Source: Opitutus sp. GAS368 (GTDB taxonomy: Bacteria; Verrucomicrobiota; Verrucomicrobiia; Opitutales; UBA953). From it: a stretch of 58,943 nucleotides of DNA. Under the pieces are notes generated by a model, which saw nothing but the letters and a program-made list of their open reading frames with translations, had not been told where the DNA came from and ran no database searches. Positions 511 to 56,629 of the stretch are shown in pieces. The DNA lies in NCBI GenBank assembly GCA_945866215.1, contig CAMBGQ010000006.1:1-58943 (forward strand), given 5' to 3'. How positions within the stretch are numbered: the stretch's first letter is position 1; each line of letters starts with the position of its first letter. Both the position numbers and the translations under genes were made by a program.

Positions 511-1284
511 CTAAGGACCTACGATCAGGCGGTATGTCCCGGGGGGAAGTTGGGCACTCCAATCGGTGTCCGTCGCCCACCTCCGAATCGCCTCATCGAG
601 GGGCTTTGAGCCTGAAAGTCTCACCGCTGCCCCCAAAGGGGTCTTTCCCAAGGAATCTACACTCAGAATAACCTCAAAAGTGGACAGGAATGGGGCATTT
701 TTAATCAATAAATCGTCCCTAACACCATTTCTGTTATTAAAATGGGGTATTTTCCCGCTTATAATGGACTTCTTGCCCCCTCCTATGAAAAATACCTCAA
801 AAAAAGCTGCTCGTTCGGCAATCCCCTGCCCTCCATACCCCGCCGTTCCAAAAGTCGTGAAGGGCGAGACCTCGGCCAGCGGAACGGCCTTGGCGGGGGT
901 GGGGGTCTCTGACCGTGGCAATTGCAAGGTGGAGTCATTGCTGGGAGATTTCGTAGGATCGAACTGTAAGACGGGGACGGACCTGGCGAAGGGCGCATCC
1001 TCCGGCTGGCCGACCTCGGTCCGGCCGAGGCCGCCAAGCGCGGAGCGGGAGGGGAAATAGACGGCGGAGGTGTCGAGCAGGATGACGCTTTCGGTGCGGG
1101 CGTCATCGGGCGACACGAGCCGGACCCCGTTGGCCAGAGGCTGGGCGGGATCTAAACCGCCGGCACCGGGCTGGAAGACGAGCAGGGTGAGCAAGAAGAT
1201 TCCCCCGCCACAGAATAGCGCAGTACGTGTCACCGGTGGAACCCGGCCACTGGCCAGGTTGCGGAACGTGGAAAGTGCACCCAT
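511..1284 (-). CDS. Hypothetical membrane-anchored protein with TonB-C-like end
   Basis: The product is 257 aa with one hydrophobic segment (about residues 23-40), then a Pro/Ser-rich middle and a C-terminal stretch (about 205-257, [15 protein letters not shown] to GTYRLIVGP). The end has the layout of a TonB C-terminal domain: a beta strand, a LDEAIRRW helix, then a final strand. The start lies 2 nt after the degP stop, so the two genes are probably translationally coupled, which suggests a cell-envelope role. The interior (about 660-790) is clearly richer in A+T than its surroundings and encodes an odd Phe/Lys/Asn-rich patch, so this part may be fast-evolving or partly degraded. The TonB resemblance is by eye; no function is assigned. 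Confidence 0.6.
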
Positions 1285-1286
1285 GC

Positions 1287-2396
1287 TCAGCGGTCCAGCG
1301 GACGCTCCGCGACCGTCAAGCGTGCCAACGAGCCTCGGCCTTCGCGGATGAAGTTGACCATCAGGACCTCGCCCGGTTTGCGGCGCGAAATCGCCAGGCG
1401 CAATTCATTCCAATTATCGAAGGGCTTACCATCTAAGGCCACGATAACGTCGCCGACCTTGAGGCCGGCCTTCGCCGCCGGCGAGCCTTCGGTGATGAGC
1501 GCGACGCGAACGGCGCCCGACTTGGCTAGATTGAGCTTGGTGGCCTCGGCGAGGGTCAGGTCTTCCCCCTGGACCCCGATGAGACCGCGGACAACCTTGC
1601 CGCCGTTGGCCAGATCCGTCGCGATGGAAACAATCAAGTTGGCCGGGATGGAGTACCCTAAGCCGATGTTGCCACCGGTACGCGACTTGATCGCGGTGTT
1701 CATGCCCAGTAACCGGCCCTCGAAATCGATGAGTGGCCCGCCGCTATTGCCCGGATTGATCGCCGCGTCCGTCTGGATGAAGTCCTCGAAGGCCATACCC
1801 ATGCCCTGCCGGCCAGAACGTCCGAGCGCGGAGACGATACCGGAGGTCACCGTTATGCCGGCGTCGAGCGGATTGCCGATGGCGAAGACGACATCGCCCA
1901 CGCGGGCTTTGTCACTGTCGGCGAACTTAGCGAACGGTAGGTTGCGTCCCTCGATCTTCAGCACGGCGATATCGCTACCGGCGTCGACCCCGAGGACCTT
2001 CGCCCGGAATTCCCGGCGGTCAGCGAGTTGCACGATGACCGTCGTCGCGACACCTTGGCGATTCTCCTGCAGCACGACATGGCGGTTGGTGATCACATAA
2101 CCTTCGGGATGGACGATTGTACCGGAACCTAAGCCGGTCGGCATGAGCGTCTCGCCAGTCTTCTCATCCTTCAGTACCGAATCAGAAGGGATACGACCAC
2201 GATAGCGCTCCAGGACCGCTGCCGGTATGACTTCCGCGGTGCGGATGCTGACGACGGAGGGCATGACACGGGCAAGCATGTCGGCGTAACTGGCTGCGGG
2301 GAGGGCACGGTTGACTGGGCGGACATCGGTGTCGAAGGAAACGCCGGCGAGGCCCATGGCCGGCCAGAGGACAAGCGCGGTGAGGTAGCGGAACAT
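1287..2396 (-). CDS. degP: DegP/HtrA-family periplasmic serine protease
   Basis: The product is 369 aa from the ATG at 2396. An upstream in-frame ATG (2465) would overlap smc and precede the signal peptide, so 2396 is preferred. The N-terminus MFRYLTALVLWPAMGLAG is a signal peptide. The trypsin-like domain shows all three catalytic residues: His106 (TNRHVV), Asp142 (GSDIAVL) and Ser218 (GNSGGPL). One PDZ domain follows at about 275-360, where many DegP proteins have two. The family degrades and refolds damaged envelope proteins. It lies 43 bp downstream of smc and directly upstream of the TonB-like gene. Confidence 0.95.
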   Translation of the reverse strand: MFRYLTALVLWPAMGLAGVSFDTDVRPVNRALPAASYADMLARVMPSVVSIRTAEVIPAAVLERYRGRIPSDSVLKDEKTGETLMPTGLGSGTIVHPEGYVITNRHVVLQENRQGVATTVIVQLADRREFRAKVLGVDAGSDIAVLKIEGRNLPFAKFADSDKARVGDVVFAIGNPLDAGITVTSGIVSALGRSGRQGMGMAFEDFIQTDAAINPGNSGGPLIDFEGRLLGMNTAIKSRTGGNIGLGYSIPANLIVSIATDLANGGKVVRGLIGVQGEDLTLAEATKLNLAKSGAVRVALITEGSPAAKAGLKVGDVIVALDGKPFDNWNELRLAISRRKPGEVLMVNFIREGRGSLARLTVAERPLDR

Positions 2397-6681: not shown

Positions 6682-8838
<2,157 letters not shown>

Positions 8839-8878
8839 GGATGGGGAGTGAAAGTGTTTAATTAACGACAATTTCAAA

Positions 8879-8893
8879 GCACCCCGTGTGCCA
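8879..8893 (-). promoter_or_regulatory. Sigma-54 (-24/-12) promoter of the GS-III gene
   Basis: On the minus strand TGGCAC-ACGGG-GTGC matches the consensus TGGCAC-N5-TTGC with one mismatch in the -12 box. The invariant GG (8892-8891) and GC (8880-8879) have exact spacing. The expected transcription start is near 8868, giving a leader of about 30 nt before the ATG at 8838. Sigma-54 promoters need an AAA+ activator, and one is encoded at 55142. Confidence 0.75.
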
Positions 8894-8945
8894 CCCTACA
8901 ACAGGGAACCATTCACAGCCCCTATTGTGCTATTTTAGCCATCAA

Positions 8946-8961
8946 TGCCTATTATTAAGCA
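8946..8961 (-). promoter_or_regulatory. Candidate activator site 1 upstream of GS-III gene
   Basis: The minus strand reads TGCTTAATAATAGGCA, an imperfect dyad (TGCTT-N6-AGGCA). It lies 66 bp upstream of the -12 G. It matches 13 of 16 bases of the element at 55043-55058, which stands 67 bp from the -12 of the NtrC-type gene. That distance fits an enhancer site of a sigma-54 activator. Confidence 0.55.
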
Positions 8962-9521
8962 AAACTCGATTGCCTACTTCCACACATTGGTCGTCCGGGG
9001 GAAATAAGCCGTATCGGTCCTGACTTGAGGGGCAGCGGCTGGGACCTGAAATCATTGGAGATGCGCAGCCTTAATGAGAGGGGTCTGGTGCCGCGGAAGC
9101 AGTTAAGGCCAGTCTCGTGCCGGAGGTAGAACTCACCCTCCCCGGCCGAGAGGGAACGAAATCAAGGGAGGTTGGCCAGGCGGCCCCACCGAGTTCGCGT
9201 GAAAAAATCAGGCCGGCCGCCGACGAAGGAGCGGCCAAGGAGGGCTGGGGGTACGCCCGAGTTCGAGGTCACCGTCAATGGCCTTGGATTCGTGAGCCGT
9301 GCGCGTGACGGCTCGTCCTGCGCCGGCTCATCGGTAACGAAGGATGCGACCAGCGAAAGATCCAGATGAAGTAGATTCGCGGCGCCGAGCGAAGGCGCGC
9401 GGAACTCCATCGTGCCCTCAGCAATCCGCTCGATGCGTCCCTTGAGGAACGACCCATCTTACATGGTGACAGTGTCCGCCAGACACGAGGCGGCTAGCAG
9501 CAGGAGCGGCCAGAACTTCAT
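8955..9521 (-). pseudogene. Decayed DUF481-type outer-membrane protein gene
   Basis: One reading frame runs from the ATG at 9521 to a TAA at 8955 but has two internal stops: TAA at codon 21 (9461-9459) and TGA at 9164-9162. It begins with a signal peptide (MKFWPLLLLAASCLA) and ADTVTM, continues past the stop with DGSFLKGRIERIAEGTMEF and LVASFVTDEPA, and ends with FYLRHETGLN and PLSLRLRISNDFRSQP. This is the layout of verrucomicrobial DUF481 (YdiY-like) proteins: an ADTVTLKDGS-type start, a small-barrel repeat, and a beta-barrel end ETGL..LSLRLS..ND. The middle is missing or scrambled, and the remnant is about 190 codons. It accounts for almost all of the 690-bp space between the GS-III gene and hemY. 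The family call is from pattern memory. Confidence 0.6.
8971..8986 (-). promoter_or_regulatory. Candidate activator site 2 upstream of GS-III gene
   Basis: The minus strand reads TGTGTGGAAGTAGGCA, 10/16 identical to site 1 and 14/16 identical to the element overlapping the regulator's own promoter (55124-55139). Its centre is 25 bp from the centre of site 1. It lies inside the 3' end of the decayed gene, where no coding constraint explains the match. Confidence 0.4.
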
Positions 9522-55042: not shown

Positions 55043-55058
55043 TGCTTAAAATTAGACA
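55043..55058 (+). promoter_or_regulatory. Candidate activator site A upstream of the NtrC-type gene
   Basis: TGCTTAAAATTAGACA differs at 3 of 16 positions from the site upstream of the GS-III gene (8961-8946) and stands 67 bp from the -12 G, against 66 bp there. The matching distance and sequence suggest the same protein binds both. Confidence 0.55.
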
Positions 55059-55074
55059 CTCTTTAATTGCCTAA

Positions 55075-55090
55075 AGCTTCTATTGAGGCA
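55075..55090 (+). promoter_or_regulatory. Candidate activator site B
   Basis: AGCTTCTATTGAGGCA keeps the two half-sites GCTT and AGGCA with the same 6-bp spacing. It starts exactly 32 bp (about three helical turns) after site A, so the two would lie on the same face of the helix. Confidence 0.4.
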
Positions 55091-55111
55091 TTTTAAGGGG
55101 GAGGCCACGGC

Positions 55112-55126
55112 TGGCACGGATTCTGC
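55112..55126 (+). promoter_or_regulatory. Sigma-54 promoter of the NtrC-type regulator gene
   Basis: TGGCAC-GGATT-CTGC matches TGGCAC-N5-TTGC with one mismatch, and the preceding CT extends the -24 match. The start point is expected near 55137, only about 5 nt before the ATG at 55142, so the mRNA would be almost leaderless unless the start is elsewhere. Confidence 0.75.
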
Positions 55127-55139
55127 CTACTTTTACACA
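55124..55139 (-). promoter_or_regulatory. Candidate autorepression site C over the -12 element
   Basis: The minus strand reads TGTGTAAAAGTAGGCA: 14/16 identical to the site at 8986-8971, and 12/16 to both the GS-III site 1 and site A. It overlaps the -12 GC and the expected start point, so a protein bound here should block the promoter. Confidence 0.45.
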
Positions 55140-55141
55140 TT

Positions 55142-56629
<1,488 letters not shown>

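Follow-up and report, generated by a model that had tools for sequence, protein, structure and literature searches.

Among described systems, the closest to the one reported here is that of enterobacterial NtrC (NR-I), likewise a response regulator-AAA+-Fis-HTH protein that acts at sigma-54 promoters, controls its own gene and has glutamine synthetase, PII and the ammonium transporter as targets. The NtrC consensus is TGCACCAnnnTGGTGCA (PMC8743547). The glnAp2 promoter of E. coli possesses weaker extra sites, the governor sites, which have been suggested to keep output in check when NtrC-P is high (PMC3870243). In Caulobacter, NtrC acts as a repressor of its own operon and as an activator of glnBA, glnK and the gene of a putative ammonium transporter (PMC10274813). 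Sigma-54 promoters in NtrC-family regulator genes, with some nitrogen enrichment in Opitutia, are reported as well (PMC12316311), so that a gene of this kind under sigma-54 control is no novelty in itself. The matches listed in our literature searches contain no description of the operator presented below, which does not prove its absence.

The window, i.e. the whole stretch of DNA analysed (58,943 nucleotides, 64.5% G+C), is contig 6 of a 1.9 Mb assembly of 97 contigs with 85.5% completeness. The nearest named relatives of its regulator belong to uncultured Opitutae MAGs (91% and 88% identity) and to Opitutae bacterium BS10 (85%); judging solely from the record names of these relatives, the source organism is probably a freshwater-type member of the Opitutae. 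Two genes of the window are of concern here:
55142 to 56629, plus strand: NtrC-type response regulator gene (Pfam PF00072, PF00158 and PF02954 above cut-off).
6682 to 8838, minus strand: glutamine synthetase type III (GS-III) gene (Pfam GSIII_N, Gln-synt_C and Gln-synt_C-ter), with a match in 37/37 genus genomes searched.

With a receiver, a sigma-54-interacting AAA+ domain and a Fis-type HTH, the regulator has the architecture of an NtrC-type enhancer-binding response regulator, and its translation contains GAFTGA, the sigma-54 contact motif. Of 113 NCBIfam families listed for this protein, TIGR01818 (ntrC) scores best, with 483.1 bits, which is below the equivalog cut-off of 558.6 bits. The neighbouring genes encode a DUF218 and a 3-keto-disaccharide hydrolase domain, with no kinase gene (ntrB) among them according to Pfam. 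Lack of an adjacent ntrB, the lower score and GS-III in place of GS-I distinguish the system from that of enterobacterial NtrC: the regulator probably works like NtrC but may fall outside NtrC sensu stricto, as defined by the TIGR01818 cut-off, an adjacent ntrB and a 17-bp operator. Whereas Caulobacter ntrC is located in an operon with its partner ntrB (PMC10274813), the present gene is an orphan with its own sigma-54 promoter and with upstream and start-overlapping sites. The kinase search of the own genome yields four HisKA places, two of which adjoin a response-regulator frame. Beside the other two (L289 and L290) there is no response-regulator frame of at least 220 aa, and these two histidine kinase frames are candidate partners of the orphan regulator.

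The operator is a 16-bp palindrome, approximately TGYYTA-N4-TARRCA and in full TG[CT][CT]TA-WWWW-TA[AG][AG]CA. It differs from the 17-bp NtrC site (TGCACC-N5-GGTGCA) in length and in its AT-rich inner half. The original prediction saw no resemblance to the classical NtrC site, which is too strong a statement: both palindromes are bounded by TGC...GCA, with 10 bases between them here and 11 in NtrC, i.e. with the outer parts kept and one base pair closer. Among solved structures the HTH of the regulator is closest to that of Fis (E 2.3e-07, recognition helix identical in 8/11 residues). Fis is without receiver and AAA+ domains and has a 15-bp core, the spacing of which is one base longer than in the present operator.

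The DNA preceding the GS-III and regulator genes in further genus genomes was aligned before a symmetric matrix was trained on 44 GS-III sites, with the genome of the window left out, and 58,928 window positions were scored. The seed consensus of the matrix had been picked after both promoter sets had been viewed, so that the scan is not fully blind. Counts of promoters above the 99% and 95% shuffle levels, given below, derive from an earlier matrix of 52 training sites, from which 8 coding-end sites were removed for the window scan and for the analyses of start-overlapping copies, GS-III site spacing and related families. The features of the regulator promoter, with their scores and ranks among the scored positions, are:
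55043 to 55058, plus strand: distal (enhancer) operator TGCTTAAAATTAGACA, predicted, 53 bp upstream of the -24 element; 24.3 bits, rank 1.
55112 to 55126, plus strand: sigma-54 -24/-12 promoter TGGCACGGATTCTGC, read from the sequence and kept in the aligned genus promoters.
55124 to 55139, minus strand: operator copy over the -12 element and the predicted start, about -14 to +2, with the AUG at about +5; 16.4 bits, rank 3.
55075 to 55090, plus strand: extra copy of the original prediction, judged to be no site; 1.8 bits, rank 10.

The GS-III promoter contains the following features:
8879 to 8893, minus strand: -24/-12 promoter TGGCACACGGGGTGC, read from the sequence and present in all 27 aligned GS-III promoters.
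8946 to 8961, minus strand: predicted enhancer site A TGCTTAATAATAGGCA, with a conserved distance of 52 bp to the -24 element downstream; 22.6 bits, rank 2.
8926 to 8941, minus strand: predicted enhancer site B TGGCTAAAATAGCACA, 20 bp from site A; 9.0 bits, rank 5.
8855 to 8870, minus strand: possible start-overlapping site TGTCGTTAATTAAACA, about -3 to +13; 11.4 bits, rank 4.
8971 to 8986, minus strand: second GS-III copy of the original prediction TGTGTGGAAGTAGGCA, in relatives mostly the last codons and stop of an upstream frame, possibly also a half-site; 5.5 bits, rank 6.

The best six of the 58,928 positions thus all lie inside the regulator or the GS-III promoter. Three positions of the window reach at least 15 bits, against a mean of 0.025 in 200 Markov-1 simulated windows; the top simulated score (19.3 bits) is exceeded by 55043 and 8946, not by 55124. 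Homology to the training set favours the GS-III matches, a gain that the two regulator matches do not have. The claim that one operator family joins the regulator and GS-III genes is borne out, since a matrix built from the GS-III sites of other genomes places 55043, 8946 and 55124 in ranks 1-3. Direct reading reproduces the predicted identities of 13/16 between 55043-55058 and 8961-8946 and of 14/16 between 55139-55124 (TGTGTAAAAGTAGGCA) and 8986-8971, and the predicted distances to the -12 element, 67 and 66 bp, are correct. The three top-ranking members of the five-site set proposed originally are retained; 55075 is at chance level and 8971 is mainly coding in relatives. The sites at 8926-8941 and 8855-8870, the latter over the GS-III start, had both been overlooked.

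The site exceeds the 99% shuffle level in 31/31 genus regulator promoters scored, in 26 of them exactly 53 bp upstream of the -24 element. These 31 promoters derive from 37 genus genomes (29 of 30 loci listed, one being short of upstream DNA, plus two added); the remaining regulator loci are contig-end fragments. In the 26 regulator promoters with this 53-bp distance, mean pairwise identity is lowest upstream (0.41) and in the spacer (0.50), higher in the site (0.80) and the -24/-12 promoter (0.87), and reaches 0.95 in the overlapping copy; 4 of the 16 site columns are inflated by the choice of these promoters for TG...CA at the site. Chance similarity of AT-rich sequence in a GC-rich genome is already contradicted by this difference between the site and its surroundings and by the excess of positions of at least 15 bits, and is barely conceivable as an explanation of the family. 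It does account for 55075-55090 (AGCTTCTATTGAGGCA), which scores at chance level, violates the originally proposed consensus at base 1 and, by eye, is not kept in relatives, and it draws some support from the first own-genome counts given below.

In the GS-III promoters (27 of 30 loci listed, the other three beginning within the gene) the two best sites precede the -24 element by 52 and 32 bp, with starts 19-20 bp apart in 26/27; the weakest second site has 4.1 bits. A downstream 16-mer of more than 5 bits is present in 18/27, in 13 of them at a common offset, the copy starting 6-17 nt after TGC. The position of 8971-8986 reads TAT-GYN-xxx-AAR-stop in 23/27 aligned promoters, i.e. the last codons of an upstream frame, and is rejected as a simple operator. 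In the window, one frame translated from an upstream stretch, different from the Y-V-W-K frame, contains two stops, and the coding reading is confined to the relatives. The three bases after this stop are GCA in 17/23 and NCA in 21/23, so that a half-site may still be selected there.

In the genus, the palindrome also precedes sigma-54 promoters of amtB1, amtB2 and glnB (PII) and, in three genomes, that of a circularly permuted (CP) ATP-grasp gene. The amtB1 site is above the 99% shuffle level in 24/30 promoters (30 loci listed) and above the 95% level in 27/30, and by eye the two operator copies are spaced much as in GS-III promoters. All 30 amtB2 intergenic regions possess a -24/-12 promoter, and in each of them TG-N12-CA precedes the -24 element by 63-64 bp, in 28/30 as TGC-N10-GCA. 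For glnB, present in 35/41 genus genomes, the sample consists of 28 promoters from the 35 genomes with a match: the site is above the 99% level in 22/28 and above the 95% level in 27/28, and is located 31 bp upstream of the -24 element in 28/28, where it shares bases with the 3' end of the frame before it. No glnB is found in the 85.5% complete assembly of the window, and this target is seen in relatives. Loss of PII from the organism was set aside, since most genus genomes carry the gene and assembly gaps are likelier.

The own genome was searched with two consensus sequences (up to 3 mismatches, reversed control). The first yields 7 matches at 6 places against 5 in the control, so that only location is informative, with 4/6 places in target promoters; the second yields 10 matches at 6 places against 2, with 5/6 places in target promoters. 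These searches revealed an ammonium transporter gene (PF00909) on contig 2, where the sites TGCGTAAAAAATGGCA and TGCTTAACATTAAGCA precede TGGCACACTTTTTGC. Downstream of this gene lies a second amt gene with its own -24/-12 promoter and a weaker site. Genus-wide consensus searches with up to 2 mismatches yield 97 matches versus 20 in controls and 142 versus 35. Of 182 distinct places in 41 genus genomes, 105 are located in GS-III, regulator, amtB1 or glnB promoters, two GS-III places (G057, G058) having been added by reading the loci; the number of unassigned places (77) is a maximum, as G057-G060 were outside the regulator and GS-III gene searches used for assignment. Glutamine synthetase, ammonium transporter and PII genes are thus all found at sigma-54 promoters preceded by the palindrome, PII in relatives only. 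The comparison lends good support to the small nitrogen regulon first proposed, which would extend to amtB1, amtB2 and glnB.

Several further blocks were observed in the course of these searches. Between the sites and the -24 element, amtB1 promoters (e.g. L179) share another conserved block, around GGCAAGCGAG, which may be a site of another protein. The 16-mer recurs between phosphomethylpyrimidine-kinase and TPP-enzyme genes in seven genomes (L210, G000:C24:4099-4114; L333; L335-L339), where it forms part of an inverted repeat, GGGGTAGG...CCTACCCC, and has no sigma-54 promoter nearby; recurrent copies of this kind were set aside. In three genomes (L332, L343, L344) the palindrome TGCTTAAATTTAGGCA or TGCCTAAATTTAGGCA occurs between 2-oxoglutarate dehydrogenase E1-like and E2-like genes, likewise without a sigma-54 promoter.

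The recognition helix of the regulator (11 residues) is identical in 29/29 genus proteins, i.e. that of the window and 28 orthologues, and occurs in 0/14 orthologues from other Opitutales or order-level families. In these related families the operator is found at 0/12 regulator genes and reaches the threshold at 1/11 amtB genes (G054), where a -24/-12 promoter is present as well. This pattern suggests that helix and operator changed jointly, but the single outside case, G054, hints at an older origin of the operator. The palindrome could instead belong to another DNA-binding protein, an enhancer-binding protein (EBP) or a repressor, with the regulator gene among its targets; the own genome has 7 NtrC-family matches, including a paralogue at C4:20457 with 39-43% identity. 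This is improbable given the site in the regulator's own promoter in all 31 genus promoters scored, the different helix of the paralogue (GISRRTLHRKL), and the coincidence of a fixed helix with the operator within the genus, both of which differ outside. The site in its own promoter and the fixed helix make the 55142 protein the best candidate binder.

A start-overlapping copy, scored over 16 bases from the -12 TGC with null shuffles of the 13 bases after TGC, exceeds the 95% null in 31/31 regulator, 25/30 amtB1, 0/28 glnB and 1/27 GS-III promoters. In amtB1 it has TGC-N10-GCA in 28/30 and CA in 30/30, with bases otherwise unlike those of the regulator copy, the 3' half of which reads TCA, ACA or CCA and GCA in 0/31. 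The AUG is located at about +2 to +5 at both genes. With +1 assumed 12 nt after the C of the -12 element, all 31 regulator promoters and 29/30 of amtB1 would have leaders of 1-4 nt, which suggests near-leaderless sigma-54 messages. Verrucomicrobia bacterium IMCC26134 is named among organisms with few Shine-Dalgarno contacts (PMC10783764), which fits such short leaders.

Similar layouts occur elsewhere. At three CP-ATP-grasp genes (L090:1516, L342, L308; one identified by Pfam, the other two being its BLAST relatives) a TGGCAG-N6-TGC promoter carries TGC-N10-GCA over the -12 element with the AUG directly after it, and L308 has an upstream site in addition. An 88-aa frame that Pfam does not match (L081 and L083, about 1196-1516, minus strand) likewise has a sigma-54 promoter with a start-overlapping palindrome and the AUG directly after it.

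Being placed on the -12 element and the predicted start, 55124-55139 more likely limits than activates transcription, and the copies suggest self-limiting repression at the regulator and amtB1. They are positioned unlike the governor sites of glnAp2, which lie between enhancer and promoter (PMC3870243), here covering -12 and +1. As glnB and amtB2 are without such a copy, capping would not be regulon-wide. The block at 55124-55139 could alternatively be a promoter-melting, start-site or translation sequence that resembles the operator, a reading whose chances we place somewhat below even: the block coincides with -12, +1 and AUG, all of them constrained, and its 3' half in the regulator never ends in the GCA of the operator. 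An operator copy is favoured by amtB1, which keeps TGC...GCA or at least CA with different bases, by the absence of the block from glnB promoters, and by recurrence of the layout at the three CP-ATP-grasp promoters and two of the small frame.

Taken as a whole, the data make it probable that the palindrome is the operator of the 55142 regulator, which would activate GS-III, amtB1, amtB2, glnB and its own gene, with the start copies capping the regulator and amtB1. Under nitrogen shortage the regulator would be phosphorylated, presumably by an unlinked kinase; phosphorylated dimers would bind tandem operator copies 30-100 bp upstream of the -24/-12 promoters and then assemble, and the assembled regulator would drive sigma-54 polymerase at the five targets. 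Once abundant, it would occupy the copy at -14 to +2 and block re-initiation at its own gene and amtB1, so that both would first be turned on and later limited. This explanation is weakened by the own-genome count near control for one consensus, by the lack of glnB in this assembly, by recurrent sites that have no sigma-54 promoter and by the presence of other EBPs.

The new feature, present at the regulator and amtB1, is the operator copy that overlies the -12 element together with the start point and is closely followed by the AUG. We give somewhat less than even odds to the reading that one Opitutae genus alone possesses a rewired, self-capping nitrogen switch, in which helix and 16-bp operator have changed together, the operator serves as enhancer and, at the regulator's own gene and amtB1, as brake, and messages begin 1-4 nt before the AUG. 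An uncultured freshwater lineage gains a testable nitrogen regulon and an operator to search with, as well as a natural case of a regulator and its operator changing together. The start-overlapping copy would represent a simple self-limit for a sigma-54 activator, and near-leaderless sigma-54 messages would bear on translation start in these bacteria.
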